Shown here piece after piece: positions 3,201-64,000 of a DNA stretch of 64,000 nucleotides. The first letter of the stretch is position 1. Each line of letters begins with the position of its first letter. Origin of the DNA: Membranipora membranacea (Eukaryota > Bryozoa > Gymnolaemata > Cheilostomatida > Membraniporidae); assembly GCA_914767715.1 (NCBI GenBank), contig OU612066.1:39034283-39098282 (forward strand), in the 5' to 3' direction. The translations under genes and the position numbers were made by a program. The notes under the pieces were generated by a model. It made no database searches, was not told the origin of the DNA, and saw nothing but the letters and a program-made list of their open reading frames with translations.

Positions 3201-4328
3201 TCAATCAATTTCTGTTGTATGCTCCTACTATGAACTTTGTACCCTTATTTAGGTCGAGCAGGATGCCAGGAAGCTGTATGATGCTGGTGAGCAGTCCTTT
3301 GGCACAGATGAATCTACCTTTAATATGGTACTAGTGGCCAGGAGTTACGAGCACCTGAGAGCTGTGTTTGATGAATACAGAAACATAGCCGGGAAAGATA
3401 TAGAGGATTCACTGAAGAGTGAAATGTCTGGTGACCTACTCAATGGTTTTCTCACTGTTGGTAAATATACTTTCTCTTAATAAACTCCAGAATTCTTACT
3501 GCTGCATACAGAACATATCTTTGATTGTATTTAAAAATGGAGGAAGCTGAGAAAATACTTGGCTAACAGGCATTAGATTCACTTACTTGTAGTGTGTATG
3601 TGTATAAAGTGTGGGGTCTATGATGGTCGTAATATATCACTAAAGTAAAGACTCCATGTAGTAAGCCCATGTTACATTTACTGCTCTTCACTTACTCAAG
3701 GCGATGGACGAAGGTGAGACGAAGGTGAGACGACTACTAACTAACAATGATCTGCTGCCTTGTATTCCAGACTATAAAACTCACTCCATGTTTTGTCTTT
3801 GTCCTTTCAGTAAGATGCATCAAAGACAAACCATCACAGTTTGCCCGGGTGCTCTATAAGAGTATGAAGGGTATGGGTACTGAGGACGATTCTCTGATAC
3901 GAGTCGTGGTGAGCAGAGCAGAGATAGACATGGTACAAATCAAAGAGGCATTCCAGAACGAGTATGGCAAATCTCTCGCTTCATTTATCTCTGTAAGTCA
4001 ACAGCAGAGTGAGAAACTCCATCAATTCTATAATAATCATCCTTTAATAATTCTCAAGGTCAATAACTCGATGCTAATAATTATATCAACTTGTACATAT
4101 ATCTTATCAATGATAGCGCATATGATGCAGAGTTAAGAAATACTAATGGTATGATGCTTGCCACATTTTACCATAAAGGTGAATACTGACAATATATTTC
4201 ATTCACTCCAGTAACAGGACAAAAGGATAAACCAAACGTTCATTTACTCAGTTTCATCGTTATTTCAGGGTGACTGCAGTGGTGACTATAAGAAGATATT
4301 GTTAGCTCTGATTGGTGAATCAAAATAA
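294..4328 (+). CDS. Annexin A (partial, 5' exons outside window)
   Basis: Exons 294-407, 2323-2532, 3253-3460, 3811-3992 and 4269-4328 (stop TAA 4326) join in frame to 257 residues. They cover the second half of annexin repeat 1 through the end of repeat 4. Annexins bind acidic phospholipids in a calcium-dependent way on the inner face of membranes. Visible signatures are GAGTDE opening repeat 2, GDTSGHFKR closing it, FGTDES in repeat 3, MKGMGTEDD in repeat 4 and the terminal GDCSGDYKK block. By comparison with annexins B and C about 64 N-terminal residues in two exons are missing to the left. Intron phases (0,0,1,0) are the same as in B and C. The protein resembles annexin C more than B; for example the repeat 3 stretch [16 protein letters not shown] is identical. 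The first intron carries a CCTAGA array and the second a retroelement tail. Confidence 0.93.
541..1072. repeat. Hexanucleotide array (CCTAGA)n with CACACCTAGA variants
   Basis: About 530 bases of CCTAGA units interrupted at irregular intervals by a longer variant containing an extra CACA. The array lies wholly inside an annexin A intron. The mix of two unit types in higher-order blocks suggests growth by slippage and unequal exchange. The remaining intron (1073-2322) shows no feature I can support. Confidence 0.95.
2797..3212 (+). mobile_element. 3' end of a CR1/L2-type non-LTR retrotransposon
   Basis: Positions 2798-3058 are open and read like the C-terminal tail of a CR1/L2-type reverse transcriptase: a PYDDRL block, then LEHLCKKI and a basic end. 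The same layout (YDDRL, then leucine-rich, then basic) ends the fuller copy at 44.6 kb. It is followed by an AT-rich 3' UTR and a short tail of ATCA repeats at about 3195-3209, as expected for this group. It is severely 5' truncated, as usual for such insertions, and sits in an annexin A intron. Confidence 0.6.
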
Positions 4329-9800: not shown

Positions 9801-11786
9801 AGTGAAGATAACTCCGTACTTTGTAAATTTTAGTCAGCATTTTATTTTAATCAATATCAATCGGCAACAAAACAGGCTAGATCATCACTATAGGCAAAGA
9901 CATAATGATACTATCCATATGCTTATGGCTATAACGGCACCTAAACAGTTTCATCTTTGGCTGCTTGTTGGTGATGACTTACAACTAATTTCATATGTAG
10001 GGAGCCGGCACTGATGAGGGATGTCTAGTTGAGATCCTCTGTACGAGAACTAACGAACAAATAGAAGCCATTAAAGAAGCCTACAAGACAAAGTATGAGG
10101 TGCTACTAGAGGAGGATATCGTCGGTGATACATCAGGAGATTTCAGGAGATTTATGGTCTCTCTGCTGCAGGCTAACAGAGACGAAGGAGATGATGTCGA
10201 TCAGGACAAGGTACACAAGTGCTGATAACTTAGTCCACACATGCTGTTCTCTCTAATGATTTATTCATAACATTTAGGCTACTTGTTCCATGATCTTCAA
10301 GTATTCAAGTTAAGCCATTCATGTCTGGCATTCCTTCCCGATAAGTTTCTAGGGATCAAAATCTCATTCCCTGCTGGTTATAACTTGTCTCATTGCCTGC
10401 TGGTTTTAACTTGTCTCATTGCCTGCTGGTTATAACTTGTCTCATTGCCTGCTGGTTATAACTTGACTCATTCCCTGCTGGTTATAACTTGACTCATTGC
10501 CTGCTGGTTATAACCTGACACGCCACAAAGTTTCTAGAGTCCTATCAACCAAATTGTAGCATCTGTGATAATTATTGTCATCACACCGCTAAGAAATACA
10601 TTATTTAAATAAACTCGAGCTAACGATCCTAGGCATGTACCAGTTTAAAAAATCTCACAATACTGAGACTGTGCACCATGTTCTGTGATAGAGCCTTACA
10701 TCTAGGAATAAACCATAGAAGACTAGCTCATCCTGACTCGATTATGAAATATTTTGTAAGGTTGAGGAAGATGCCAAAGAGCTACATGAGGCCGGAGAGG
10801 GACAATGGGGTACGGACGAATCAGTGTTCAACATGGTGCTAGCAGCTAGGAGTTTTCCCCACCTGCAAGCTGTGTTCTCAGCCTACAAAGACTTGTCAGA
10901 GAAAGACATCGAGGAAGCTTTAGAGAGCGAATTGTCTGCAGACTTACTCGATGGCATGAAAACTGTCGGTGAGAATTATTGACCACATATCTTTGAATAC
11001 TCTCTAGTTAATGGTGATTGTAAATTATTATCAAATTTTTAAGTCTTTATTGATAATAATAACGACTATAGTGTAACCTCGGTTCAGTATCAGCATATAT
11101 AGTTCTCCGTAGTGCAGCGACCAGCTGATACAGCAGCAGGTAGGCTGTTTGGTTGATAGTCACACTATGTGGAGGATATTGTTGTCATTTAAGCAGATGA
11201 TTCAGGATTTGTTTTTTATAAATATTTCCTTTTTTCCAGTGAGATGTGTAAAGGACAGACCCACAGCTTTTGCCTATGAACTACACAAGAGCATGAAGGG
11301 AGCGGGCACCGACGACGACCCCCTCATAAGAGTGGTGGTAGCTAGGGCTGAAGTTGATATGGTGCAGATCAAATATGCATTCCAGAGAGATTATGAAGAG
11401 TCTTTAGCTGAATTTATTGCTGTAAGTAAATATAGTGATAATGGGAGGTTCATGTGTGTGTGTAAAACGAGTTGGCAGCCTAAATTGATGAATAATGTGA
11501 TGATGGTTAGCTGCCCACTCTAACCAACCTGCCAAGTCTTCTGTTACCAGGATAGGAGAGGGAACTATTAACAGCTTTCCGAAACAGAACAAAAATCTGT
11601 TCTGGAGTACTGCTCAAATACCGCAATCTATGAATTAAGTATGTCTGAGGCCTCATTTCATATTAACCCTACGCATCTAACTCACTTGATACTGATTTTG
11701 TTGTTGGTTTTTTTTTCCAGGGGGATTGCAGCGGTGATTATGAAGAGATTATTCTTCAGCTGATTGGGGAGCCTAAGGATGACTGA
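6888..11786 (+). CDS. Annexin B (complete, 7 coding exons, 323 aa)
   Basis: Exons 6888-6902, 7469-7645, 9504-9617, 10001-10210, 10761-10968, 11240-11421 and 11721-11786 (stop TGA) join in frame. The first exon codes only for MSWYQ, so the N-terminal tail before the core is short (about 20 residues). Four annexin repeats follow. Calcium-site loops: GLGT at residues 31-34, GAGT at 103-106, WGTD at 188-191 (the usual variant for repeat 3) and GAGT at 262-265, with GDCSGDYEE at 303-311. Predicted role: calcium-dependent phospholipid binding. It is the most divergent of the three annexins and more acidic in repeats 2 and 3. A 26-bp minisatellite lies in the intron after exon 4. The gene converges on the BTB gene. 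Confidence 0.95.
7646..9503 (+). other. Long intron 2 of annexin B
   Basis: 1.86 kb between the repeat 1 exons. I see no repeat array, RNA gene or extra exon that keeps the frame. Confidence 0.6.
10363..10518. repeat. 26-bp minisatellite, about 6 copies
   Basis: Units of the form CTCATTGCCTGCTGGTTATA plus ACTTGT, with single-base variants such as CATTCC for CATTGC and GACTC for GTCTC. It lies in the intron between annexin B exons 4 and 5. Confidence 0.9.
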
Positions 11787-22641: not shown

Positions 22642-25600
22642 CTATTTTGGCTCTCCGATGAGCGCCAGTAGTATCTTCTTATAGTCACCACTGCAGTCAC
22701 CCTGTGACATAAAAACCAGATTGTTATAACATCTGGAGCAGACACATTCATGTCTAAATCTTGTAATGCCAAACAGAGTATAATTCGCTGTGCAATAGAT
22801 TTAATAAAACACACATAACATTGCTACCGACAGAATTCAGAGGTATACAGCTAGAATGGGTTACTTAGCAAATTATCAGGACATCATGTAATTATGACAG
22901 CCTTGGATAGCAGTATATATCTTTACTCACAGATATAAATGAAGCGAGAGTCTTGCCATAGTCTCTGAGAAAAGCTTGTTTGATCTGCACCATGTCGATA
23001 TCTGCTCTGCTCACCACGACTCGTATCAGAGAATTATCATCTGTACCTAGTCCTTTCATACTCTTATGTAGCACCTTGGCAAATACTGATGGCTTGTCTT
23101 TGATACATCTTACTATAAACCATATCAAAACAATTTAATATAGTAGGTTATATGAATTACAAAGACATACATGAGCGTCTGTTGCATGATTATGTACAGA
23201 TAATGAATGAAGCATGTTTTTAGAAACTTGCTGCTGGACAGAGCAAATTTCATGTCATGTGTTCATCAATCAGGTGTAGAATGAAATTCAGTTTAGAACA
23301 AAATATTCTTCACTTATGTCCCTTGATGTTATGTCAGCGAATTCTACGAGTTTATGTATCATGTTACATGTTCAGTCAGGTTCTTGAGTAATTTATCTGG
23401 TTGGAATAAAAAAATTAAGTAATATTGAACATCATACTTACCAACAGTGAGGAAACCATTGAGTAGGTCACCAGACATTTCACTCTTCAGTGAATCCTCT
23501 ATATCTTTTCCAGCTACCTTTCTGTATTCATCAAACACGGCTCTCAGGTGTTCATTACTTCGAGACACAAGTACCATGTTAAAGGTAGATTCATCTGTAC
23601 CAAGCTTCTGCTCCCCGGCATCGTACAGTTTTCTGGCATCTTGCTCTGCCTGGATAAAGAGTAAAAGGCATTTTATGACCTGGTGGGAAATTATAATTTA
23701 GGATTATAATAATCAATTAAAACTGAGGTCTTACTGAGCTGTTACATTTCACTCTGGTGCTGCCTATAGATCATACTGCAGGTAAGTGTAAAGCTAAGTC
23801 AATCATATACATAGTGACTAATAAATTTATATTGGTGTGATGCAGTCGTCTCAACTTGTTTTGAGGAGAGACAACTCTGATTAGGATGATTTGGTCTTGT
23901 ACAGAAAGCAGCCAATGTTTACCTTTGCTTGATCGACGGCTGGGTTCTCATCTCTATTTGCTTGTAGTAATGACACAAGAAGTCTCTTAAAGTGACCTGA
24001 GGTATCTCCAGCGATATCCTTCTCCAGTGTTGTTTTATATTTAGTTTTATACGCCGCTGCGAAGGCTTTGATTTCGGCGTTTGTTCTTGTACACAGCACT
24101 TCTACTAGACCTTGATCGTCTGTACCTGCGCCCTGAAACGTAACACAACATAAGAGATTGACACCAAGGGAGATAACTTTATAGCCTTAGTTTATTCCAG
24201 GTACAAATATCTAGCGGTTTGCTTACAGTAAAGTCTGGAGAAATGGGATAATAAGCAAGAAATAGATGATCAAATAACTACACCGCATAGAGTCCTAAGA
24301 GTCCCCTGATTCATAATGTAGCTTAGCATGTATAGGTCTGTATATGTAGGTAGGTATAGGTAGGTATATGTATAGGATAAGAGTGATAATTACTGCCTCA
24401 TGCTGTCAGGGAAATCGATCTATCGATGTGTTACATCCCATGTTTTCCCATAGGATTACCTAATACAATAATCTGGTCTCTGAGGCGAGAGGCTCTCACA
24501 GAGAAAACAGATCAAATTACTGGTCTCAGTTGACCAGTTTATCAAATCAATTCCGGACACAAACTCAATTTATCTCTACACCTGTCTTGGCTGACAGCTT
24601 CTGTATAGCTGTGTTGAAGCTGGTATCACACAATGCCCTCTAATGACCGTATTAAGTGACTTATGCTACTATTATACTCTACGCTAACTTTTGTTTTGGA
24701 AGATGTGCTCAAAGTTGTGACGAGAAGTCATAGGATGAGAGACTACTTGTGCAGAGCTGACATGAGGGGAGAATTTAAACCTCATAGACACATTTATATC
24801 TTAAATATAAGTTTGGTTGGGTGTCATGTACACTGATCCATCAGAATTTGTGAAAACAGCTGCATGGGTGCAGAATTATTCGGAAAGAAATACTGACTCG
24901 CTTATGTTATGACTCGAGTTAACATCAAAATAAATTGTTTTCAAGATAACCCCAAAATAGATACTTTTTGAGAAAACATCAAAGTAGTTTTCAAGTGAAC
25001 TAGGTCAAAGGCTTCAGTTCATCATTGGCCTTTGTGTCGAAAATAGAGTGAGTGAGAGAGTGTGAAGTTACCTTGATAGCGTTGTTCAGTGATCGAGCAT
25101 CAAATTCAGCCTGTGAGAGACACAGACCTGTACATATAAGCTTGTAGTTACCACTCAGCTCAGATTTCAGCTCTGCCTTCAGATCCTGTAATCATAAAAT
25201 AACACTAGACTTACTTCCTCATCCGAGGGGAGAATAACAAGTACTTGTTAGAGCAAGTCCGTATATCATAATTGACCACAGAAAAATTCTCTCCTCAACA
25301 GACCATATACTAAGCTGGAACAACAAAGTCATGAAATACCAAATATCAATTATCACTGATGATATGTCATTAATTTACTGAAAAGTGACAAAACAGATCC
25401 TATTGAATATTGTAACAAGAATGAAGCAAATACCACATATGTGTTTGTTATTCCTTATAATTATTCGGCTCCCAGGTTGATGTTTCCAGGGAATAAGTCC
25501 CTTCCCCCTCCCTTCAGTCAACATAAGTGATCTGTCAAACACTTTGCGCATCGCTTGCCCTGTGCAACAAAGTGCTATCTGACAAAATCAAAGAATGAAG

Positions 25601-34288: not shown

Positions 34289-37200
34289 ATGGCTGAGAAC
34301 ACATGTCAACCAAGCTGTAGCAGCTGTATCACCAGCAGGAACAGCAGCAGTAGCAGCATACCCCTAGGAGCAATTAGCGATACTGTTGAGCCAGAGTCAG
34401 TGGAGGTAAGCTGTGGATACTGTCTTAGACAATATGCTGAGATGGAGAAGCCAAAGTTACTGCCTTGTGGGCACACAGCGTGTGAATCATGTCTGCTGAA
34501 TGATCCGAGACGACAAGTAACTGGGAGCATAGAATGTCCAGTGTGCAGGTAATTACACTCTACATCATATCATGGCTGCAATCAATGAGCGTGTCCATCT
34601 AATTTTACTGTTTGGTTGATTACATTGACATGATGTACATGTAGTTCCTTCTGTTTGAGGCTATAAGTGGGTGGCGTTGATGTTCTGAGTACGGGTCTGG
34701 TAAATGGCCACACATCTCTATAACAGGGCAACCTACTCGTGCAATAACCATACGGCAGTGCAATATATTTTATCTTGTATCAATTTTGATGGCCATTGGG
34801 CAAGTTGGTCGCCGAATAACCCTCTGGATTTGTTTTTCGCCGCAATGATGTGTCTCTACAACCCAATCTCTGCTGTAACGTACCCATCCGCCTCTGTCAA
34901 TATCTTTTCCGGATGCGGCATTCGGCAGTCTTCTGAGTTCCAAAAATAGAAATCCATTGCATGCAACCTGGACATCAGGTGGATGTTAAATAGGCATCCG
35001 GATTGGTTCACTGTGCAGCAATGTTGCTATGGCTTCAATTATATACATACATGATGAGGAACATTTTCCAAAAAAAAAGAAACTTTTTACCACAGCTACC
35101 ATCAGGAAGATATAGGAAAATAAAATACAGGTCTTCTTGGGGGAAGCACCATTATTCTATCCCTCAATAATATGTTTTAAACTTAATCCACAATAGATGT
35201 CAGCTTTTCTTTACGTAATTTTTTTTCATATGTTCTATGTGAACGGCAGTTTATTAAACAACAAATTTTGCAACATACTTGTATGTGAGTGGCTAATAAA
35301 CCAATCAATCAATAGTTTTAGTAGTAATCTATTTATTGAATATATAACAATAGAAGATCACAAAAAGCCGGCAAAACTGATGATACGGTCTGGAAAATTC
35401 AGTGACAAAATGAAACTTTTATGATTAAATGTGAGACTAAAATGAGATGTTTTTAAAGTTTGTGGCAAACTATAGGGTTAAGTAAGCAGCTAGAGTATTT
35501 ATGTGATATCTAAACCTGAGATAAAACCAATTGCACTTATACCACAAAAAATATGGCCTTTACAGTCACCTAAGTGATAATACTTAGGTACTACCATGTA
35601 CTAAGATGAAACTATCAAGAGACAAAATGAAATTTTTGAGATTAGAAATGAGATGACAATGTGACAAATTACAATGCTTGTGGCAAAAATATAAATGACA
35701 CAGAATGGGCAGTTATAGTTAACTTGTGGGAAGGTTCTAGCAAGCCAAATCCCTGGATGTTTCTAAGACCTAATACTGGCACCTCTCTCTGAGCTTCAGC
35801 ACTAACCAACTAGTTTTCATGGACTGTAGGCATGGAAAAGGTACCTCTCTAAGGGCTCTTTGAAACCATACAAGTTTGACATGGTTAAGTTTATAAAAGA
35901 TGTATTTGAAGCTACCATCTGCCTCCAGCCACTGTAATGTAACAGTTATAAAATATTTCCACAATGAAATAATTGAACAAAATTTGATATAATATCACAT
36001 AATAGGAAGTTACAACATTTTTTTCAGGAAAGTTCATGACATAGATGGTGGGATAGAACAAGACTTTATGCTACCTGCTCTATACCCAAAGCTGAATGAG
36101 GAGTTACAGGTGTTGTCTATGGAGTTATCAGTATGTGATCTCTGTCTGCGAGAGGAGAACAATATGCATGCTTCCGAGGCTAAAAAATACTGTAAAAAAT
36201 GTGCAAATTCACTATGTACCAAGCACTGCAAGGTAGGTCGATTGACTCAAGTTCGGTACCCAATTAAATGCATGTTTGTTATGCTTGCATATTTTTCATT
36301 CTAGGCACTGCTCAGGAATCTAGAAAAGGCTGCCCCTCCCACCTCCCTTTCACAGATGAGAATTAAAACTGTTACAGCTCTTTAGGAGAATATGTATAGA
36401 ATCAATCACTCATTTACCTGCATCATAGCCTTACGTTGGTGGGGCTTACAGCGCCCCCCCCCCCCAAAATCACCCCAGCTTTGTTTGCTCGGCTGGGTAT
36501 CAATTAAAAGCTAGAAATCCACCCTGTTTGGATCAATGATTCCATATTTATTTATTTTTTTGTTTTATCTTGGCACAATAGGAAGAACATCATTTTAATG
36601 ATGAAGATTGCTTGTTAATCAACGTTTAAAAAAAAAAAATGATAGCATTTATGAGTTTTCCAGGCAAATCTTGAGAACAACCTGAACAATATTGCGCCTG
36701 TTCCTGTATTGAATCACCGGCTCTGAGATTAGTTTAAGCCCATAAAACTGTGCTGGGATAGATGGTAGTAGAATTCAATAATAAACCTCGTAAACTGGAT
36801 GGGGAAACTGGTCGATTAAACTACATCTATAGTTAAAATTGCTACTATCAAAACCTGATTTTGTATAATTGTTTTATGAATTTTGAAGGATCACGACAAA
36901 CAATATCCCAAAACTGGAGCTGCTGTACATGTGACTATAAATGTGCTGAAGCAGTCCAAGGAGGAAGACACTGCTGAGAAGTGTCCTAAACATAAAGATA
37001 CGCCGCTGGCAATCATCTGCCTTTCATGTGATGAACTCTTCTGTGCACAGTGTGATCTGCAGGCTCAATGCAATGGTCAGTACTTCAATTTGTGGCATAT
37101 TAATATCAAGTGACAACAGCCTAGGGCACCAAGGCAGCATCTCAGGAAAAATATGAATGAAAAAGCATAAGACAACTACTCCAAAGCGGAGAAATATGAT

Positions 37201-40200
37201 GGCATGTTTTAAATTTAACAGCCAATGGTAGTCTTAATATTGCCTTTTATTTTAGCAGCAGGCAAGAAGAATGTTGGTGCAGCACCAGTGTTTAAAAAGA
37301 TGGCAGAAGCACACAAACTGCAGTCTATAGCAACTGTCATTCAGCAGATAAAAAAAATGTCAATAGACTTAGACCAGAAAATATTCAGCCATCACTCTTC
37401 GGCCAAGAAATCGTTTGGCAAATTTGATGATATTGAGCTAGCCGTGGAGAAAGAGAAGGAGAAAGTCGAAAAAAAGCTAGCGGACATAGTAAGCAAGACT
37501 TTAATTCTTTTTAATCAGGGAGAGTTATAAAGGAACAAAGCATATTGATGTCAATGGTCCCTTGAAACCTCAAAATAGAATATGTCAAATATTTTCTCAA
37601 ACTCTTTGAGACAAGCTGTTTCTACACAATAATTTATAGGTGGAGCACATGACTCAAGAAACGAAAAAGCTGGATGATTATATTATGATGTGCGGAGGTT
37701 TATACTCTCAGTCTTATGAGACATTCTGTCAGAAAAAGGAGGAAGTGGAACAGGAGTATGGTATCATCATGAAGTTTGTGCACAACAAGAGTAACACTGA
37801 TATACTAAGACAGCACAAGTTTCTTATAAACTCAATGGAGACTGCTATCAGGAAAATGGCTTGGGAGCAGGTGCCCTATCCGCCTATCCCGGGTCAGTTG
37901 GAAAAAACTAATTTATTGTTTAAATCTTAAAATGCAAATTATCAAGCTTAAATCTTTATTATCACCGCTTGAGGGGTTACTAAAGGGACATTTAACGCTT
38001 CAAAAATTCGTCGTCATTCTGGCTAAGGGCAAAGAATGTAAAAATATGTAGATATTTTTTTACAAGCTGTGGAACACTGAAGTGTTTAACCAAAACGATT
38101 GAATAAGAATCTGTTTGCCGCAATTAATATTTCGATGTTTTTGATACATTTTGGTTCCAGAATCCCTCGAAATCTCTGAAGCCATTAATACAAGCACAAC
38201 AGCTCCAGCCGCTGAGCAATTTGAGGACCGGCCTACTGTAATCAGAAAGGAGTTCGCGCAGACAAAAACTTTTCCTGCTCGGCCTGATGTCTACGAGACT
38301 CTCCTACAAGAGATTTCTGAGTGAGTTAATCTCTCTTACAGAGCTAAATTATATGAATACTAAAATCAGGCTAGTTTGCTCAAATCTCAAATCTCAAATC
38401 AAATGCTAGGCACTTTAGATGCCTATGAACGGTGTTTGTATGAATATCAAAAGATTGAGAAAACATGTTTTGCAAGATACAAAATATCCTTCGTAATAGA
38501 CTGATCACAATGGAAGATACCGGTCCATAACGTGAGAAAATCCAATTGAGATAAAGATCCAACCAGGTATATCTAACATATATGTATCAAATAACACATC
38601 AAGGCAGATTTCGGTTCAAAAATGTATTCAAAGCCCCACATCTAGGTGGAATAGTCAAATCCGAAAATTCATGATATCCCTTGAGAAATACTTAACTGAT
38701 GTTTATCTTTAGAAAACTTAACCTAAATGAAGCCACTAAGGACATAAAAATGGTGTTAGTCTGTCCGGCACCAGGTGGAAACTGGTACCAGCTTCTTGTA
38801 CAAGGAGACGGAATCAAAGCAGCTGAACCAGAAATTAAACAACTCGAAACTAAATATCCGCAGTGGACTTTAACTGTCTCAGACATGAAGCCAGTGTTCC
38901 AAACAGCAGACAAACTTCCTGTTTACACCGTACCCTTCCGTGAGAGTCCGTTTTACCTGACTATAAACAAAGGCTATGACGATCAGAAAGCTGATTGCTC
39001 GAAGGCCACTATTGGCGGCTTTCTTTGTGATGACAACGATGAGAGGTGCTTTGCTTTTTCTGCAGCACATGCTTTGGTTTCGGGCCAAGAAAGTGGTGCA
39101 CTGAAAGACTTGTTCGGCGAGTGGGAAAAAATGCGAGACCACATCCATCTCATGAGGAGAAATATCACTGGTGAACATTCAAGCAACGAGCTTGTTATAC
39201 ATAACCACAATCACCTGCATAAGATGACTGCATCAAAGATACAGTTTGGGGCTCAGGAGTATGTCAAACCGTCTGTTACTGCCGAGAATTACAGAAAGTT
39301 TGCAATAGACTTTCTTTTATTGCAAGTGCCACCAACAAAGGTGTACAGAGAACCAGTTCAGAAAAAGCCCTTACAATTCATGAACAGGTTTCAAGGAAAA
39401 CACTCTCTAGGGGCTCTGCCTATGGAACATGCACCTGGAGAATTCTATGTAACGCGCTTTGTGGATATCACCAGTAAAGAAGACATTGACAGACTGAGAG
39501 AGCGCAGTGTAGCAGTCTTCGTGGATGGGCACATCGGCACAATTGAAGCCCCCCCTGAGGTTCTCCCTGGTCGCACGGATTTCGTCTTTGGATGGCACAT
39601 CCCATTCAAAACAGACACTGCGTGAGTATCTAAAAGGCTTCACCCCTACTGTAAGGCAAGCACATACTCTCATGAGGGAGAAATATTTTTCTGCCATAGG
39701 CTGTTTTTGATATCCTTTGTGTAGCTGCGGGATTTGAACCTCTATTCTCATAGTTACATCTTCCGGGTACGGTACATTGGGTAAAGAGCAGCCTGGAAAA
39801 TGGAATCAGAATCTGTTTCTATTGATTGGTCAGTAGGCAGCTTCTTTGCTCATTGCATTAGCTTAAACTGTCTTAACATGACTATATTCTACAAGGTATA
39901 GAATTTTAGCATATTATAGAACTTGAGAAATCATCAATACACAAAGGGAAAAATACATTCATTTCATTCACTTCGTATGTTGATATTTCAAATCATCTCA
40001 GCTCAGTGATTATAGGTGAATGTACCCAAAATGTCTTATATGATAAGAAAACTTGTGTCCGATATATCTGAACCTGAAATGTGAAGCTTGAGACTTGAGA
40101 CTTATGACTAGTAACTCATAGCTCGTAGCTGGTAACTCGAGATTCACAAGCCTACTATCCAAATCAGCCTTAAACGAGCACAGGACCATTGAACGCCCAA

Positions 40201-40901
40201 TCAAATCAGAGGGAAAATCTTATAGTTATCTCCCCAATATAATATCTTATCGGGAAAATTTCTAGCTGTGAAAAGCTCATGAGCAGTAAGTGTCACTATA
40301 AACAGACAAGACTGCCAACCAAGACTGCCAACCAAGACTGCCAACCAAGACTGCCAACCATGACTGCCAACCAAGACTGCCAACCAAGACTGCCAACCAA
40401 GACTGCCAACCAAGACTGCCAACCAAGACTGCCAACCAAGACTGCCAACCAAGACTGCCAACCAAGACTGCCAACCAAGACTGCCAACCAAGACTGCCAA
40501 CCAAGACTGCCAACCAAGACTGCCAACCAAGACTGCTCCACCTGCTAGTCAAGACACAGCAGACTTATCTCACTTGTATTTGCAGGTTGTTTCAAGGCCA
40601 GAGTGGCGATGCCTTACTGGTGTTTGACCATAGAATTGAGGAGCTGTATATATTGGGGGTGTTCAAAGGTCAGCTCAGAGCTCCCCAGCCCTGGACTATG
40701 TACCAAGCAACAGCCTTCGCTCCCTCACTCAGGTATATGCAGGAATTCTTGTACACTCGGGAGTTTAGTGGTAAGCTGAGACTGATCAGTAGACTGGATG
40801 GTAATGCTCCGCCGGCCCACTCAGTTAGTGTGGACGACATAATTGATGATCTGATGGTCTACCCTGCTGTTGATTATGAGAGTGAGAACAATTCTGTGTA
40901 A
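34289..40901 (+). CDS. RING/B-box (TRIM-like) protein with C-terminal trypsin-like domain (8 exons, 840 aa)
   Basis: Exons 34289-34548, 36028-36232, 36889-37075, 37256-37488, 37640-37892, 38161-38320, 38713-39621, 40586-40901 (stop TAA). Phases 2,0,1,0,1,2,2 all agree. Residues 42-86 form a C3HC4 RING (C42,C45,C60,H62,C65,C68,C83,C86), the usual fold of E3 ubiquitin ligases. Residues 123-154 are a B-box-1-like cluster (CDLC, YCKKC, CTKHC). Residues 187-216 start a B-box 2 (CPKH, CLSC, CAQC), but its last two histidines are not evident. Residues 218-379 are charged and helical, coiled-coil-like. The C-terminal part holds AFSAAHAL (His552), AIDFLLLQV (Asp632) and GQSGDALLV (Ser742), in the order and local context of the S1 protease triad. 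The catalytic Ser lies in the last exon. I recognise no standard TRIM C-terminal domain such as SPRY or NHL. Ligase and protease activity are inferred. Confidence 0.85.
35190..35316 (+). mobile_element. Possible non-LTR retroelement 3' tail
   Basis: AT-rich sequence ending GGCTAATAAACCAATCAATCA, the same kind of ATCA-repeat tail seen after the elements at 3.2 and 61.4 kb. No coding part can be read. It lies in intron 1 of the RING gene. Confidence 0.35.
40307..40536. repeat. 13-bp minisatellite, about 18 copies
   Basis: Unit CCAACCAAGACTG, nearly homogeneous. It lies in the last intron of the RING gene, 50 bases before the terminal exon. The duplicated unit at about 46453-46466 has a single copy of the same motif, so the array expanded after the duplication. 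The long open frames across it are artefacts of the 13-base period. Confidence 0.95.
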
Positions 40902-41532
40902 GCCACTCACTTATAAGTTGAAGAGAAACCTACAAAATCTATTCTTCTTCAATTCAACGTAAAGACATATAAAAGTGAAACAGACATAAGTATTAGTGTT
41001 GCTGCATACCTTACCTAGCTTCCTCATGTGTATATACAATTAGTATGGTTATTTGTTCGCTCGATAACCAAGCTTTTTTCCAGCTTGGTTTTGCTGAATA
41101 TTGCTCACTGTGAAAATTTGATTCAAAAAGTTTGTTTTTTTCTGATTCATTTTGCTAGATTTTTTTAAAACAGCTCCTCTCCCTACCCTTTAAGCTGGCA
41201 AATACTCGAGCTTCATTCTGTTAAATGGTTTATTCTGTTGGAAAGGTTTCTGTAACTTCTTGCAACGCTTTTAATATGCTTCTTCATACAATATGACTTA
41301 TGTTCCATCAAACATGGCAAATATTTTGTTTCTATTATGTAGTGCTTGGTTTATTTAAACATGTCATTCAAAACATAATTGCAATTGTCAATGCAACACT
41401 GATTCACTGCATTTCCATGTTAGTTTCGAGGTCGAGCTGAGGCTAATCAAGAGGCTATTCGAGCTATGGGAATGCCTCCGAGCTTGAGCTGAGCTCTAAT
41501 GTTCAGCTCGTATTTAACAGCTCGCACTACTT

Positions 41533-42815: not shown

Positions 42816-44852
42816 GATAGATGATGTATATCACAAACATTGTCCGCTTATGAGATTCCGCATTCCTCAGAATAGCTCACCTGCATGGGAAACCCCCCTC
42901 ATTCAAAAGCTAAGGCGTGCAAAGGAGAAAGCTTTCAGCCAAGGAAAACCCTCATATACCTATCTCCGGACTATGCTTGATCTAATTATAACAAAATCAA
43001 AGCGAAGCTTCTTCGATCAAAAGATCAATCACCTGAAAGCTGGTACTGCTAATTGGTGGAAGAATGTCAGATCCTTTGATAGTAAATCGAAAGCCAAGGT
43101 ACCGACACACTATATCATTGATGACACACTTCATGACCCACAGCAGTTTGTCAACAAACTCAACAACTACTACGTTACTATGGATGTTCAACCACCAACT
43201 GATTATTCAAGTTACCAAATTGATGAGCTCTGTTCTGTTGACGATGTTCCAATAGGTCAAGTGAAAACTGCGCTGAGAAATATAGAAACTCAGAAGTCCG
43301 TCCACAGTAAAGATTATCCTCCCTGGATAAGCAAACTCTGTCACGAAGACCTCTGTGTACCGATAGCCGATATAATCAACCATTCACAAAGATAAGCAAA
43401 GCTCCCAGCACTCTACAAAACTGCAGAAGTTATACCGATAGCTAAAACAAACTCTCCATCCACTTGTAAAGACTATCGCCCAATATCTCTTCTATGGCAT
43501 GTAGGTAAAGTTGCTGAAAACTTCATAAACAGACGAATCCGTACCCATATCCTCCCCAAGCTGCAAGGCAACCAGTTTGTCTATATGCCGGGTGTAGGAT
43601 GCACAGATGCTCTTGTTAGCGTTCTTGATGACGTCACCAAGGCCATGGACAATTGTAACAACATCGGGGCCCAGATGATATTATATGATTTCAGCAAGGC
43701 CTTTGACCTTATGAATCACACTCTTCTTCTACAACAGTTGAGACAGTTTAAGCTCCCAAACGCCCTTGTGGCTTAAGTCGCGAGTTATCTAGAAAACAGA
43801 AAACAACAAGTAGTGATTCATCAGCACCAAGTAAAATCTCACACTGCATCTTCCAACATAGGCGTTCCACAAGGGACCTTGTGTGGACCTACTCTGTGGT
43901 TGGCGTTTGTTGATTCGCTTCAATTCTCCACTGCCAGCACTGTAAAATACGCTGATGACACAACCAACTACCTGTCTCTCCAGAAAGCTGATCTTCAAAT
44001 AATAAGCAATACTTACAACGCTGTCAAGTTTGAACCTCCACCCGTCAGTCAGCAGCTTATCGATGAATGTACTAAATGGGCACACGACAACAAAATGCTA
44101 CTGAATGCTACAAAAACTAAGACATTGAACCTTTCTCTTAAGAAACAGATGATAATGTCGAAAACTCTCACAATGAATCAATCACACAACGTAGACAACG
44201 TAGCTTCTACCAAACTACTCGGTCTTACCATCTACCAACATCTACGATTCAATGAGCATGTGGCTAACATCACTAAGTCAGCGAACAAAAGATGTCACGG
44301 TCTGCTCGTATTAAAACAGTCCGGAGTAAACCAACAAAGCCTAGTACTAATGTACAAAACCCAAGTAGTCGCAGCTATCACCCACGCTGCAGGTGCTTGG
44401 TACCCTTACACCACCGAATGTCTGAGGAATGATATTGAGAGATGTCAGCGGCTTGCTATGAGGATTATTTTCTCTGACCTCGAACACTACGATGATCGAC
44501 TTGCAGCTGCGAATTTGCTACCACTAAATGATTTACTAAACGACACATGCCACAAATACGTACATCGTATTTTATCTGACGTTAACCATCCCCTACACAA
44601 TCGACTTCCGCTCAATAAAACCAGACTCAGACGCTCAACCCGTAACTCTGAGGGCACCATTTGTATGCCTAAATGTTGAACTGAGAAGAGAAAATGTGGA
44701 ATTTTTGCCAATCCTGAGTTTTATGCCATTTGAAATGATTTATTTTATTTTTGTTCATATATTTTTAGAGGGGCTTTTTGAAAGCACACTACTTTTATTA
44801 TGTAAGCATTCTCAGATGAGAAGTTATAAATTAAACAAACAAACAAACAAAC
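42814..44852 (+). mobile_element. CR1/L2-type non-LTR retrotransposon, 5' truncated
   Basis: About 2.04 kb. It reads from the endonuclease/RT linker (MIDDVYHKHCPL) through the reverse transcriptase: VIPIAKTNSP, YRPISLLWH, FSKAFDLMNH, NIGVPQGTLCGP and the catalytic YADDT. It continues to a C-terminal YDDRLAAANLLPL block and ends in an AAAC-repeat tail (44833-44852). Stops at 43393 and 43774 interrupt the frame, so it is dead but young. The same site in the right unit (about 51880) is empty, which fixes the insertion with a short ATGAT target repeat. Confidence 0.88.
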
Positions 44853-45130
44853 AATGATGAAACAGATCTTAGGATCATGTTCTCGTGTACAAAGAGAAGA
44901 TAACTCTAAGGATATTGAAATGAGAGTTTGACACTAGAGATATATGTGGCAAGGCTACTAAATTTTTTTGGGCTTTGGACCAGGGAGGGTGGGTGTATAT
45001 CCCTCCCTCCCTGTGTGGACCAATGCACCGGGAGTATGCTAAAACAAAACAATGAAGCTGAGAAGGTATAAGGTTTTTTTGTTGAGTAGATAGTGGTGGA
45101 TAGTAGTGGATTTTTACCCTGTGCCACATC

Positions 45131-46330
45131 TCTCATAGAAAGTTACCTCAAAAACCATAAACAATATGTTGTTGTAAATACTGCTGTATCTCAGTACCGG
45201 GACATCAACATAGGAGTGCCCCAAGGTTCAATTCTGGGGCCACTTTTGTTTTTGATTAACATAAACGACCTCTTGAATGCAGCGCCTGCATTAAATTACA
45301 TACTGTATGCAGACGACACAAATATATTTTGTACAGACCATGCTATTTTAAGTCAAGAATTAAACGAAGTTGAAAATTGGTGCTTAGCTAACAAACTAGT
45401 ACTTAACTATTCCAAAACTTTTCAGGTAATTTTTAAATCCCCAAGAAAAGCTATCAGTGCCGATGATCATGTTATCAAACTGAATACCAACACCCTTGAA
45501 CTGAAAATCGAAGCTAAATCTTTAGGTATTATCCTTGATTCAAATATAACTTTTAAGTCGCACATAAATGAATTGTGCAAAAAATTAAATTTGGTTGTAA
45601 TAATGATGCGTGTAGTAAGGCCATACTTTGACATAAAACAATGATCGGATTATATTACTCATTTTTTTACCCGCACCTGCTCTATGGAATAGAGTTCTGG
45701 GGCAATGCTTCGGAAAATGACCTTTAACGAGTAATAGTTCTCCAAAAAGCTTGTGCAAGAGTAATTTTAAAGAAAAAAACCAGAGATTATGTTTCAACCC
45801 TTTTTAAGACTTTAAATATAATGCCTTTGACTATGTTATTCTAATACTGCTCTTTAAAACTATTTTTAAGAACATTTTCGAACGAGTTTATCAACTCTCT
45901 AAAATCAGAACATGATTATAACACAAGATTAAATAATTTACGAACAAAAAAGGCCAAAAACAAGCGAGGTGAGAGGTCCCTGTTGTGCCATGGTGCCAAC
46001 CTGTACAACAGGTACCTTATGGGAGTGGAGACATGTACTCAGTCTGGTTCCTTGGGTGGCCTGGCGGCACGCCTGTGGGAGGGGGTTTGATTGTGTGCAG
46101 GTTGCGAATGTTTCGCTCTGTCGTTCCGGCAGGTGAGTGTGGCTTCGAGTGTTCTAGTCGGGCAGTCTCTGCTCTAGCTACGTGCTGTCTGACTGTCCCA
46201 TTGCTTTTTAACATTTTATATACCTTTGACACCTTTTTACTCATTCTAGTTTTTATAGTAAGCAATAAACACACCAGAAAAAAAAATCATGAGAATAGCA
46301 AGTCTACGATAACCGCCTGCAACTGAGGAC
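45131..46330 (+). mobile_element. Second non-LTR retrotransposon fragment (jockey-like)
   Basis: An open stretch at 45131-45644 encodes the middle of a reverse transcriptase: DINIGVPQGSILGPLLFLI, then ILYADDTNIF. It continues in a shifted frame after 45644 with YSFFYPHLLYGIEFWG and ends with a GANLYN block near 45990. The sequence differs clearly from the CR1/L2-type copies. It is truncated at the 5' end, frameshifted, and lies exactly between the two units of the tandem duplication. Confidence 0.75.
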
Positions 46331-46512
46331 TTTGAATTAGCATAGGATCATTGTGATTTACTTAATGCTCATATTTATCTCCCCAATGTTATACCCAATG
46401 TGGAAATTTCTAACTGTTAAGAAGTCAAGAGTTTTAAATGTCACTATAACCAACCAAGACTGCTCCACCTGACAGTCCAGGCAGAGCAGACTTATCTTAC
46501 TTGTATTTGCAG

Positions 46513-46828
46513 GTTGTTTCAAGGTTAGAGTGGCGATGCCTTACTGGTGTTTGACCATAAAATTGAGGAGCTGTATATCTTGGGGGTGTTCAAAGGTCAG
46601 CTCAGACCTCCCCAGCCCTGGACTATGTACCAAGCCACAGCCTTCGCTCCCTCTCTCCGGTACATGCAGGAATTCTTGTACACTCGGGAGTTTAGTGGTA
46701 AGCTGAGACTGATCAGTAAACTGGATGGTAATGCTCCGCAGGCCCACTCAGTTAGTGTGGATGACATAATTGATGATCTGATGGTCTACCCTGCTGCTGA
46801 TTATGAAGGTGAGAACAATTCTGTGTAA
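46513..46828 (+). pseudogene. Dead copy of the RING-protease terminal exon
   Basis: 316 bases, the same length as the working exon at 40586-40901, with acceptor and stop codon kept. The codon before the catalytic Ser is TAG (46525-46527) instead of CAG, so translation would stop just before GlySerGly. The preceding exons are not duplicated. The rest of the frame remains open, so the loss is recent or the exon is under little drift. Confidence 0.9.
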
Positions 46829-47224
46829 GCCACCCCAGGGGGGGACTCACCAAAATTTACCCACCATGCTCGGCCTAAAAACACGTTTAAAGGGATGTTT
46901 TGGAGAGTTGGAGCTGCACAGTGAAATCTATAAATAAGGGGTAGTTGTGCACAACACACCAAGTGCAAAGGGCTAGGATCAATGTATGCTTATAGTGCTA
47001 GTGAAAAGGGGGTAGATCCTGTGCTATTCAGAGTGATAAGGCCCCCTCTCATGTCAAGTTGCTGGATGGGAACCTAACCAATCTGATTGATGACAAGTTT
47101 ATAAGCTGAAGATGTTTACACATAACCAGGGAACAATCTTTTCTTCCTCTTGACCTCAGAAACTGGATATAGCACCATAAACATCTACAGGTAAATATAA
47201 CTCAAAAAGTATTAAAATTATCAT

Positions 47225-48004
47225 ACATTCTGCGCATGCTCAGCTCTGGGCATGAGCTGATCTCTGCAAAATTGAGTCTCGGAATTCCGAAGCCATTTGA
47301 TTGGCTACCTGCTCTGGTGACATACTCCCCAAAGCGTGCGGATTTGTTATTATTAGTTATCCTCTCTTGTCATTATTAGCTGATTTTGATTGACAGTTTA
47401 TGTGGGGGATATCCCATTTCTCCTTTCCAAAACTAAACTCATTGTTCTTGCACATGCGCGAATTCAAGTCACGCATGATGCATACTTAGCCTTACGACAC
47501 CTGCTTTGTGATAATGATAACCTAGTTTATCAGTGATCTACATGCCCAGTCAGATCACGAGAGTCAGTATGATTATCATACTGCTTGCAGTATGATTTCA
47601 GACTATGACCTTCATACAACCTTCCTTCAATTTGTCATCCATACTGACTCTCGTGATCTGACTGGGCATGTAGATCACTGATAAACTAGGTTATCATTAC
47701 CACAAAGCAGGTGTCGTAAGGCTAAGTATGCATCATGCGTGACTTGAATTCGCGCATGTGCAAGAACAATGAGTTTAGTTTGGGTTCTGATTGCAACTTT
47801 GGAAAGGGGAAATGGGATATCCCCTGCATAAACTGTCAATCAAAATCAGCTAATAATGACAAGAGAGGATAACTATCAATAACAAATCCGCACGCTTTGG
47901 GGAGTATGTCACCAGAGCAGGTAGCCAATCAGATGGCTTCGGAATTCCGAGACTCAATTTTGCAGAGATCAGCTCATGCCCAGAGCTGAGCATGCGCAGA
48001 ATGT
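47225..48004. repeat. Large near-perfect palindrome
   Basis: Arms 47225-47571 and 47640-48004 (347 and 365 bases) are almost perfect reverse complements around a 68-base centre. The right arm has a small extra segment near 47785. The outer ends begin ACATTCTGCGCATGCTCAG. It lies 38 bases before the start codon of the small gene, so it would fill its promoter or leader. A foldback element is a plausible origin. Confidence 0.9.
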
Positions 48005-48042
48005 TTGTCATCTGCAATTGGCGTGTGGGGAAATTGGAAGAA

Positions 48043-61405: not shown

Positions 61406-62808
61406 GTGTATATTGCAATATATTGGAAAAATGGAATATCACCTGTTGAATTGTTTAGTTGTCTCCTCCTTGACATAAAGGAAACAACTCTTGGTTATTT
61501 TGAACTCCTTAGAGTATTTTGGTCTGTAAGACAGCGGTATGCAGAAGTTCCTGGTTCAACCTGCACAATCAAACTGATGTATTAAGAAGCCAATATACAT
61601 GACTTACGGGTTGCCTTATAAGTTTTCTCCATCCTTTTGAGCATTTTTCGTTTCCGAGTCCATAGTTCTAGTTTCCTTTGGTGCTCCTGCAGATAAAATA
61701 TTCAATAAAACTTTCTATTATGACCTTCACAGACATATCAAAGATGGACATGTTTATATCCAAATGCTAATAATGGCATGGGAGCTGTGATGATAGCAGT
61801 TTCTCCTAACCAAACAACATCATTTATCTTGGTGTGAGTTGACTATTTAAAACTAATCGCCCGAGGTGGGGCTCGAACCCACGACCCTGGGATTAAGAGT
61901 CCCATTCTCTACCGACGGAGCTACCCGGGCTGGTTGGCACATATGTAGTGATGGAGACAGAATCTATACAGTCATTTGCCACCTGCTGGTTCTCATTCTA
62001 TTAACCCCAAGATGTTACGCCCTCCAGCTAAAGTTTGTATCTTCCATCATCAATGCCATCTTAAAAGACATTGGCATTTATGTGCGTAGAGACATAGTTT
62101 TGTTATCCGGCTTTACCAATCTCATGCAGACTGCGTTACTGCAGACCCGTGACCTTTGCGATCAAAATAGCAAACTAATCAGATTAAAATTCAGGCGGAA
62201 TCGACAAAACTCTTACTACCTTATCTCATGAACTCAAAAGATCTGCATTAGGACAGCTTTAGTTCCCACAACAAACTGCTCGTAATCAATTCTCACTTTA
62301 GAACATTCTGCTGCTCTGCTGGCATCCCCTTGACTGAGACTCAACCAATCACATCACAGCGATGCTGTTACTAGTCAGCTGTATAAGATCGTATCTGTAG
62401 TTTTCCTTACCTTCAGTTTCGAGCTGCTCGCTGTTATTTTACCACAGAGTGTTGCTTCTTTCTGTTCCGCTGCAGATATGAGATGTGATAAGGTAGCAGT
62501 TACTGATATAGTGTCTGCCATGTCAGCTGTCAAACAACCAAACATTCAATCATACATCTGAGTAGCAGTATAAGATAAAAGCAACTGTGTACGCGGCAAA
62601 GTACACAAGGAAGTTAGGACACGTTGAAGTGGAGCAGCAGCTTAAACAAATACCAAACAGGAAGAGGAGATGCCTACATGAGGTTGTCATATAGTCAGTC
62701 TTACCTAATAGAGAAAGAGTAGCTCCATGCTTGAGGAGATAGTTAGATATAGATTCACATTGGAGGAGAAGAGCCATGTCTAAAGCTGACATACCGTCAG
62801 TATTTACA
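51445..62808 (-). CDS. ANKFN1: ANKFN1-like protein (ankyrin + fibronectin III), 13 exons, 5' end outside window
   Basis: Minus-strand exons: 62808-62705, 62526-62411, 61686-61608, 58958-58824, 56656-56468, 56052-55821, 55340-55088, 54790-54587, 54079-53934, 53606-53458, 53214-52898, 52418-52277, 51926-51445 (stop TAA). Every phase agrees; about 849 residues are in the window. The first exon is an ankyrin repeat (GMSALDMALLLQC, LLKHGA). A basic helical segment (RKLELWTRKRKMLKRM) follows, then a fibronectin III domain (HPVQNIELIITSQKSLRVEF to YYIRVSACNMKGFG). After it comes the long region typical of ANKFN1/Wide awake proteins: FNWLLKVCSHWHDIRQLK, LLGVHDLGMLHYRPIKD, GLYMGYLQTEV. The tail is Ser/Asp-rich. 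Homologues bind ion-channel or receptor partners in neurons; that role is known only for the family. The terminal exon has a broken twin at 42377-42815. Confidence 0.88.
56657..58823 (-). other. Long ANKFN1 intron within the fibronectin domain
   Basis: 2.17 kb between the two fibronectin III exons. An open frame at 57013-57315 has no recognisable domain and no splice context. A short CAGTACTTGT repeat (about three copies) is near 58570-58600. Nothing else supported. Confidence 0.5.
59832..60208. repeat. 34-bp minisatellite, about 11 copies
   Basis: Unit of 34 bases containing GTTTACAGTAGAGTGTCACC and ACATTCCCACCAT. Copies are directly adjacent with few substitutions; two middle copies (about 60040-60085) are the most diverged. 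Confidence 0.95.
60960..61404 (+). mobile_element. 3' end of a CR1/L2-type retrotransposon
   Basis: The frame from about 60970 reads DPYSERLSSSKLPTLETYM, then NDPNHRLSHLVP, the same C-terminal pattern as the copies at 2.8 and 44.5 kb. It ends in a long ATCA-repeat tail (61347-61404). Sequence at 60560-60960 is probably older, frameshifted reverse transcriptase of the same element. It sits in an ANKFN1 intron, in antisense to the gene. Confidence 0.7.
61687..62410 (-). other. ANKFN1 intron containing the tRNA-Lys-like sequence
   Basis: Apart from the tRNA-like sequence I see nothing. The open frame 61866-62231 overlaps the tRNA and has no domain. Confidence 0.6.
61858..61930 (-). tRNA. tRNA-Lys (CTT)-like, probably a pseudogene
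   Basis: 73 bases with a fully paired acceptor stem (GCCCGGG with CTCGGGC), a good anticodon arm with loop CTCTTAA and a standard T arm (GGTTCGAGCCC). Two D-arm positions are wrong: the near-invariant A14 is C, and base 25 is A, which breaks the 10-25 pair. It is therefore likely a decayed or retroposed copy rather than a working gene. It lies in an ANKFN1 intron on the same strand. Confidence 0.7.
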
Positions 62809-64000
62809 CTGCAATAAAAAGAGTACATATCAGCTCACAACAGGGAAACTAACATGACATACTACACCTTAACTATATCAGCCTGTCAGTAATTTACCAT
62901 CACCGTTGGCTCTAGAAGCTACAAACTTGTTTTGATAATTTTGTGAAATGTGACCGAATGTAATATGAATAACAGCATTGCTGTGCTACACAATTGACTC
63001 AACCCAGTGAGTAGAACCCAGTAATTAGTGATATAATTATATACATTTCCGGATTAGTGGAAGTGACTGACAAGCTTGGTCACTTATGTAGGATTGATTT
63101 TCCTCCTTTTGGTTGCTCTACCAGTTTAGTGAGACTACAGCACACCAGTTTAAGAAATTTTGGAAAAGAGCTAATAACCTTGTATAGAGAAGGATGTCAC
63201 TGGTTCGGCATCCTTAGCTTACAGCCAAATATAGCCATCATTATATTAAACGTGGTTAATTATAAAGAGCATATTGTAACTAACGGATAAAAATTCTTCA
63301 CAAAAAGCCTGTATTCAACCACTGATCCAATTTTTGGTTAATAATAATAATGTTTTCTTAAGGGGATACCAGGCAATCCGTTGATGTGGTCTGCCAATTG
63401 AATCCTGCGTTGTGTTCATGACCATGGCCTGCTATATTTTATGAATTGGACAACTGTTTTTTAGAAATTGAATTTCAAACTAGACATGAAAGTTGATCTG
63501 TTTAAAACCAGAGGATCAGAGAAATGCTAGGATGCCAATTTTATTTTCCTGCAACTGATTTCTTCCGCATATCAGTTATGGAGAGCTATTATTTCCCCTT
63601 AAGAGGATGCTCTGGATTGAAGAAAGTGCCATGAAATTCAATGATTTGGGGTCAGGGAGGGAGCCTTTGAGTCTTGCTATGGCAAGGGAGGGGATAAAAT
63701 GGCAAGGGAGGGGATAAAATACTTCCGCCCGAACAGGGACTCGAACCCTGGACCCTCAGATTAAAAGTCTGATGCTCTACCGACTGAGCTATCCGGGCCA
63801 TGAACTCCGAGGAAAGTGTCAAGAAAATGATTGGGGGCATAATAAATCAGTGCAAAGGGGACTGTGGGTTAAGGGGGGGGCACCTAAAATCAAACCTCGA
63901 CAGCTCCCTCATACCAGTGTATTGTGGAAGTCCAAGTTTCGAGGTTTCCCAAGAGTTTGGGGGTGGGGGTGACTCATGCAAAACTAAGATACTTGACACA
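62809..64000 (-). other. Upstream ANKFN1 intron, continues beyond window
   Basis: The exon at 62808 has a good acceptor, so this is intron sequence as far as the next upstream exon, which lies outside. It contains a two-copy 19-bp repeat (about 63681-63719) and a tRNA gene. No other gene recognised. Confidence 0.5.
63726..63798 (-). tRNA. tRNA-Lys-TTT: tRNA-Lys (TTT)
   Basis: 73 bases including the discriminator G. All stems pair: acceptor GCCCGGA with TTCGGGC (one G-T pair), D arm GCTC with GAGC, anticodon arm CAGAC with TCTG around TTTTAA, T arm CAGGG with CCCTG. The internal promoter boxes TAGCTCAGTCGG and GGTTCGAGTCC match consensus. It is the canonical animal tRNA-Lys(UUU) sequence and looks functional. 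No intron. Confidence 0.95.

Follow-up and report, generated by a model that had tools for sequence, protein, structure and literature searches.

The available text of Marin (2012; PMC3503706) arranges the TRIM subfamilies in classes that follow Short and Cox and Ozato, and the word trypsin is absent from the main text of that paper. In the accessible portion of PMC9798293, FAM111A is described as a trypsin-like protease that acts inside the cell, cleaves itself and contributes to antiviral defence, its His-Asp-Ser triad lying at positions 385, 439 and 541. According to the same portion, FAM111 proteins match the Pfam model Trypsin_2 and carry two ubiquitin-like domains in most species of the tree, and two marine invertebrate members are without these domains. 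Trypsin-like effectors in bacterial conflict systems and fusions of TRIM proteins to TRADD-N domains are reported in the available part of PMC8195603. A literature search revealed, among the matches listed, no paper on a RING-B-box-trypsin protein by title or by the start of the abstract. To our knowledge, one protein does not normally carry out both ubiquitin ligation and regulated proteolysis.

The window, which is the whole stretch of DNA analyzed here (64,000 nt, C2:39034283-39098282, GC content 38.8%), comes from a genome of 339 Mb in 18 contigs; spliced genes, the three annexin-like exons and the presence of an RBCC gene point to an animal. The window probably encodes a TRIM-like RBCC E3 ligase that ends in an intracellular trypsin-like serine peptidase with the triad His552-Asp632-Ser742, the two parts being joined at intron 5.

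Gene model and the RING/B-box half

Eight exons spanning 34289-40901 on the plus strand join in frame to give 840 aa, and each of the seven introns is of the GT-AG type (Table 1). Enumeration of GT/AG splice choices produced 12 in-frame eight-exon models of 834-840 aa, which differ in where exon 1 ends (by two residues, within the last RING Cys pair) and in the starts of exon 4 and exon 5 (1-2 residues). The in-frame eight-exon gene of the original prediction is the 840-aa version among them. All eight exons are open, and a pseudogene reading of the fused gene was set aside. An assembly join of two genes was also set aside, though graded as possible.

The C3HC4 RING claimed in the original prediction is complete, with eight ligands (C42/C45/C60/H62/C65/C68/C83/C86), and three Pfam RING models score above their curated cut-offs (best zf-RING_5, E = 6.2e-8), with the zf-C3HC4 model below its own (19.3 vs. 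21 bits). Both of the zinc clusters described alongside it were found, the second being an incomplete, degenerate B-box that lacks the last His pair in the 840-aa model. The B-box model PF00643 stayed below its cut-off (E = 1.6e-4, 22.2 vs. 24.1 bits, profile positions 4-31 of 42). For the cluster in exon 2, no Pfam model matched, and we read it as B-box-1-like. A genome search with exon 5 returned no second match at E <= 1 (three candidates scored). Judged from these motifs, the protein would be a TRIM-like E3 ligase, presumably active as such and located in the cytosol.

Table 1. Coordinates of features in the window (positions counted from its first letter) and of the family loci elsewhere in the genome (contig:position)
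Feature	Position	Strand	Description
Annexin-domain exon	3771-4133	+	E = 1e-16
Annexin-domain exon	11242-11520	+	E = 2.1e-14
Annexin-domain exon	23362-23694	-	E = 4.8e-22
Exon 1	34289-34548	+	Start codon, Ser-rich leader, C3HC4 RING (residues 42-86, 34412-34546)
Exon 2	36028-36232	+	First zinc cluster, B-box-1-like: C123, C126, C142, C145, C150, H153, C154 (36134-36229)
Exon 3	36889-37075	+	B-box-2-like cluster, residues 187-210 (36982-37053), without final His pair
Exon 4	37256-37488	+	Helical, coiled-coil-like (read by eye from sequence)
Exon 5	37640-37892	+	Helical, coiled-coil-like (read by eye from sequence)
Intron 5	37893-38160	+	Proposed fusion point of RBCC half and protease-family half
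Exon 6	38161-38320	+	Pre-protease linker, end PDVYETLLQEISE, Met absent
Exon 7	38713-39621	+	Trypsin-like domain with His552 (39068-39070) and Asp632 (39308-39310)
Intron 7	39622-40585	+	Phase 2, position conserved in family
Tandem repeat in intron 7	40307-40536		13-bp unit, 17.7 copies, 99% matches, ahead of serine exon
Exon 8	40586-40901	+	GQSGD nucleophile motif, Ser742 (40602-40604), domain end, C-terminal tail, stop
Reverse-transcriptase ORF	43777-44676		RVT_1
Reverse-transcriptase ORF	45090-45641		RVT_1
Second copy of exon-8 region	46450-46833	+	Matches 40523-40906, 94.5% DNA identity, stop codon inside nucleophile motif
Palindrome or foldback element	47222-48007		786 bp, 89% match to own reverse complement
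Two tRNA-Lys genes	61858-61930, 63726-63798	-	Anticodons CTT and TTT
Family locus	C2		Window
Family locus L010	C4:15957772
Family locus L028	C4:15933754
Family locus L030	C4:17383626
Family locus L011	C9:23723526
Family locus L017	C9:23816571
Family locus L019	C9:1750790
Family locus L029	C9:13869273
Family locus L031	C9:13850067
Family locus L033	C9:8586527
Family locus L040	C9:8610388
Family locus L038	C9:12631510
Family locus L039	C9:12625520
Family locus L037	C10:2491132
Exon-8-like piece	L049:1695-1901		Without serine motif, between two tandem C9 family members

Outside the gene, the window holds a cluster of annexin-domain exons upstream, and LINE-like elements with reverse-transcriptase ORFs just downstream. 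The second copy of the exon-8 region is probably a broken duplicate, because it has a stop codon within its nucleophile motif and sits beyond these ORFs. The part near the duplicate exon that matches the intron-7 tandem repeat is without the 13-bp expansion. A large inverted stretch and two tRNA-Lys genes also occur in the window (Table 1).

The C-terminal domain and its family

The genome carries 13 further loci with the C-terminal domain, which makes 14 with the window. These loci were obtained by single-protein genome searches, and one search alone gave exactly these 14 at E <= 1, all of which were kept; as the search scores the best candidates only, the number is a lower bound. The best E-values of L019 and L037-L040 were weak (0.0065, 0.026, 0.063, 0.066 and 0.50), and these five were kept as members because long open frames and serine exons support them. 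A chance triad was set aside, since the conserved domain recurs at no fewer than these 14 loci in the genome.

In the alignment of the 14 loci, 303 columns hold at least 12 residues, and six of them are invariant: His552, Phe629, Asp632, Gly708, and one Gly and one Tyr of exon 8 (13 rows). Among the 13 rows with exon 8, the Ser742 column has Ser in 12 and Cys in one. Exon 8 of L037 is absent from the alignment, and a serine exon for this locus (GQSGS) was located downstream by a profile built without L037 (E = 2.5e-17). Over all loci, His and Asp are each found in 14 of 14; Ser occupies the third position at 13 loci and Cys at the remaining one, mostly in motifs of the GDSGS or GQSGS type, this Ser count being partly circular, as the serine exons of L028, L029, L031, L038 and L039 were sought with a pattern requiring G-x-[S/C]-G. 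At the other loci, open frames or a profile served to locate the serine exon. The spacing is 73-94 residues from His to Asp and 84-124 residues from Asp to Ser (the latter without L037). The motifs TSAHLLL, NDIAVF and GDSGSVIF of L038 were read as the three trypsin motifs. In the window, the nucleophile motif is GQSGD, with Ser-Gly followed by Asp rather than by Gly or Ser. Additionally, the best-scoring intron right before the serine motif is in phase 2 in all 13 loci examined (L037 left out), with a lower-scoring phase-0 alternative in L028.

At L019, the motif is GDCGS, in which Cys replaces the nucleophile Ser, and His and Asp are retained. This is a possible Ser-to-Cys nucleophile switch, which can be likened to the 3C-like proteases.

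The domain might also be a catalytically dead protease-like fold that binds a substrate or ligand, the role played by SPRY in other TRIM proteins. The available text of PMC8195603 states that recognition is a frequent role of the C-terminal domains of TRIM proteins, SPRY among them, and both the departure of the window motif from the GDSGG type and the Cys of L019 would suit such a binding module. We regard this as unlikely, because the identity to the window is about 16-27% (members for which it was computed) and His, Asp and Ser or Cys are nevertheless kept at all 14 loci; a pure binding fold would have no reason to retain exactly these residues. Since few columns are nearly unchanged and the catalytic positions belong to them, a working protease is favored over a dead fold, and a triad retained despite such divergence speaks for catalysis in the family. 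Taken together, the comparison suggests that catalytic constraint acts on a family of trypsin-like peptidases, and speaks against a chance triad or a dead fold.

A search of exon 7 against 5.8 billion predicted proteins revealed six relatives among 698 candidates, one of which is a 98% copy, and the other five show 44-64% identity over 52-98% of the exon length, a range that the search itself gives as 45-64%. Each of the six is about the size of an exon and carries no name. The His motif is spanned by P0001-P0005 (among them the 98% copy), all of which retain AAH, and the alignment shows no variation in the Asp column. In P0005, RFPEKPTDYDRLLEEISK lies upstream of the domain and resembles, by eye, the end of window exon 6. 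The family-profile search obtained eight proteins among 4086 candidates at E <= 0.1, two of which were new: P0009 is identical by eye to L028, and P0010 is a relative of L028 whose longest contig measures 27 kb. All eight are unnamed and look like members of the window domain family. No full-length relatives were found at E <= 1 among 3520 candidates (query residues 433-810, proteins of 0.55-1.75 x 840 aa), and exon 7 had no match in viral contigs.

Profile models were less informative about the fold. No Pfam model scored above its cut-off within residues 433-840, neither PDZ nor ubiquitin-like domains were matched by Pfam in the 840 aa, and the Pfam trypsin models, including PF13365 (Trypsin_2), matched none of the eight loci scanned of the 14. 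Comparison of a 10-sequence family profile with the PDB gave five chains at E <= 10, of which four are named serine proteases (Pet, 0.039; EspP, 0.9; Pic, 1.4; Jep, 1.7) and one is not a protease (SarX, a transcription regulator, 0.84). None of the protease matches is individually significant; they lie in the profile stretch 294-343 or parts of it, which holds the Ser region. Pet, EspP and Pic have a chymotrypsin-like fold. Similarly, Peptidase_S6 of Pfam matches two of the 10 members over the Ser region, below cut-off (best E = 0.032).

Several other matches were rejected. The prion protein gave the best E-value (0.0025) and most of the 53 hits of a 7-sequence profile, and was discarded as a short chance match that is absent with the larger profile. 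Matches to EndoS_Ig-like and Matrix_Borna (E = 0.019-0.055) were taken as chance, and so were those from PADLOC and NCBIfam (E = 0.012-0.16), though one of them, Rv1815_serprot (E = 0.16, one member), bears the name of a serine proteinase.

The hhalign comparison with DegP, DegQ, DegS and 10 further DegP sequences was weak (probability 2%, E = 0.024). The Ser stretch was aligned in one mode and the Asp stretch in the other, never both together, and His stayed unaligned. The score was 23.5, against 12.7 for the reversed alignment and at most 16.1 in 19 of 20 column shuffles; the one remaining shuffle gave 132.9, a 9-column artefact. Two AlphaFold models of exon 7 alone, and thus without the serine exon, had mean pLDDT values of 39.2 and 42.3 (7 and 9 sequences). 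Foldseek returned no match at E <= 0.001 for the first of them, a model of too low confidence for this result to be meaningful.

The original prediction had placed His552, Asp632 and Ser742 in a trypsin-like domain and had proposed comparing it with profiles of protease families. The three residues were confirmed at the positions in Table 1, and the trypsin-like reading gained strong support from the conservation of His, Asp and Ser/Cys over 14 loci and from the shared phase-2 intron; the profile matches to protease families stayed below significance. An unrelated conserved domain in which the H, D and S motifs are fortuitous would explain why no known protease was matched significantly, and the fold prediction, made on exon 7 with low pLDDT, is uninformative on this point. 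Such a domain is very improbable in our judgment, as the order, context and conservation of the motifs fit S1 peptidases in 14 loci and serine proteases make up four of the top five PDB matches. From motif order, motif context and conservation, on which the trypsin-like reading rests, we infer a trypsin-type fold.

The junction between the two halves

In the window, an exon end of the Y-x-x-I type (PDVYETLLQEISE) stands ahead of the domain and is followed by a GT donor; the same arrangement was read in eight of the 13 other members (L010, L017, L028, L030, L033, L038, L039 and L040), with no clear one in the other five; the pattern was chosen after seeing examples and returned unrelated strings too, and the eight were picked by eye. 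By motif likeness, exon 6 is a likely part of the protease family, since counterparts of this exon, but of none of exons 1-5, occur close to other members; on this basis, intron 5 is the probable fusion point.

RING regular expressions, a RING profile and tblastn with residues 1-378 recovered the RBCC half in the window control but none in the 6-21 kb upstream of each of the 13 other members, although larger introns could hide one. The RING profile was built from eight loci, three of which were read on the wrong strand; it found the window RING, left out of the model, with E = 0.0071, and nothing else above the inclusion threshold. Outside the window, tblastn gave two short matches at chance level (E = 0.54 and 0.69), near L037 and L040. 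The B-box regular expression misses the B-box of the window itself, so the absence of upstream B-boxes rests on tblastn.

The absence of RING halves in these searches suggests that a RING-less form is the family norm, and raises the alternative of two separate genes, the first an RBCC gene that would stop after exon 5 and the second a short gene for the peptidase that would start near exon 6, or of alternative isoforms. Exon 5 can indeed be read into its intron up to an early stop. However, the open frame of exon 6 has no Met, whereas the matching exons of L038, L039 and L040 contain one (as putative starts only), and introns 5 and 6 have usable GT-AG sites that keep the frame. The lack of Met suggests that the start of the peptidase half has to be supplied by exons further upstream. 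We consider two genes or isoforms rather unlikely, and exons 1-5 and 6-8 would form one transcript and one protein. In the fusion that we favor, the peptidase half would derive from a lineage-expanded family, with at least 13 other loci at which no RING half was found, and exon shuffling or a gene fusion at intron 5 would have linked it to the RBCC half.

Proposed function and comparison with known systems

We tentatively propose that the peptidase is activated by clustering and acts together with RING ubiquitination. The coiled coil and B-boxes would oligomerise the protein upon a target or stress signal, clustering would activate the peptidase, and the target or the protein itself would be cleaved. 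The RING would ubiquitinate the target, the cleavage products or its own protein. One polypeptide would then both cut and ubiquitinate, and this expanded animal peptidase family, so far unlisted, may be a set of cell-autonomous defence or death effectors with one Cys-switched member, a view that we hold with considerable doubt. A natural fusion of this kind would make it directly possible to ask whether an E3 can steer both cleavage and ubiquitination onto one target.

The protein shares with the TRIM/RBCC E3 ligases an N-terminal C3HC4 RING, two zinc clusters, a helical region and a variable C-terminal domain, and differs from them in the trypsin-like nature of this last domain and in a B-box 2 without the last His pair. 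In HtrA/DegP proteins (S1C), the His, Asp and Ser motifs come in the same order, but the profile score against them is weak, as given above, and the window protein has no PDZ match. In the conflict systems and metazoan TRADD-N fusions covered by the available part of PMC8195603, a trypsin-like domain is an exchangeable effector beside adaptor or sensor domains, and TRIM modules join too; no RING-B-box-trypsin protein is described in that part of the paper. FAM111A and FAM111B, as far as the accessible portion of their description goes, resemble the window protein as animal intracellular peptidases of the S1 type with the peptidase at the C-terminus and a regulatory N-terminal half. They differ in that the window family has no Trypsin_2 match in the members scanned, and in that the fused partner in the window is a RING E3. 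By analogy, FAM111A may be the closest working model for the window protein as a conditional, clustered protease. If our reading is true, the family, with at least 14 loci, no significant Pfam match in the eight scanned and likewise none in NCBIfam and PADLOC for the members scanned, would represent a new intracellular trypsin-like branch in animals, beside HtrA and FAM111.
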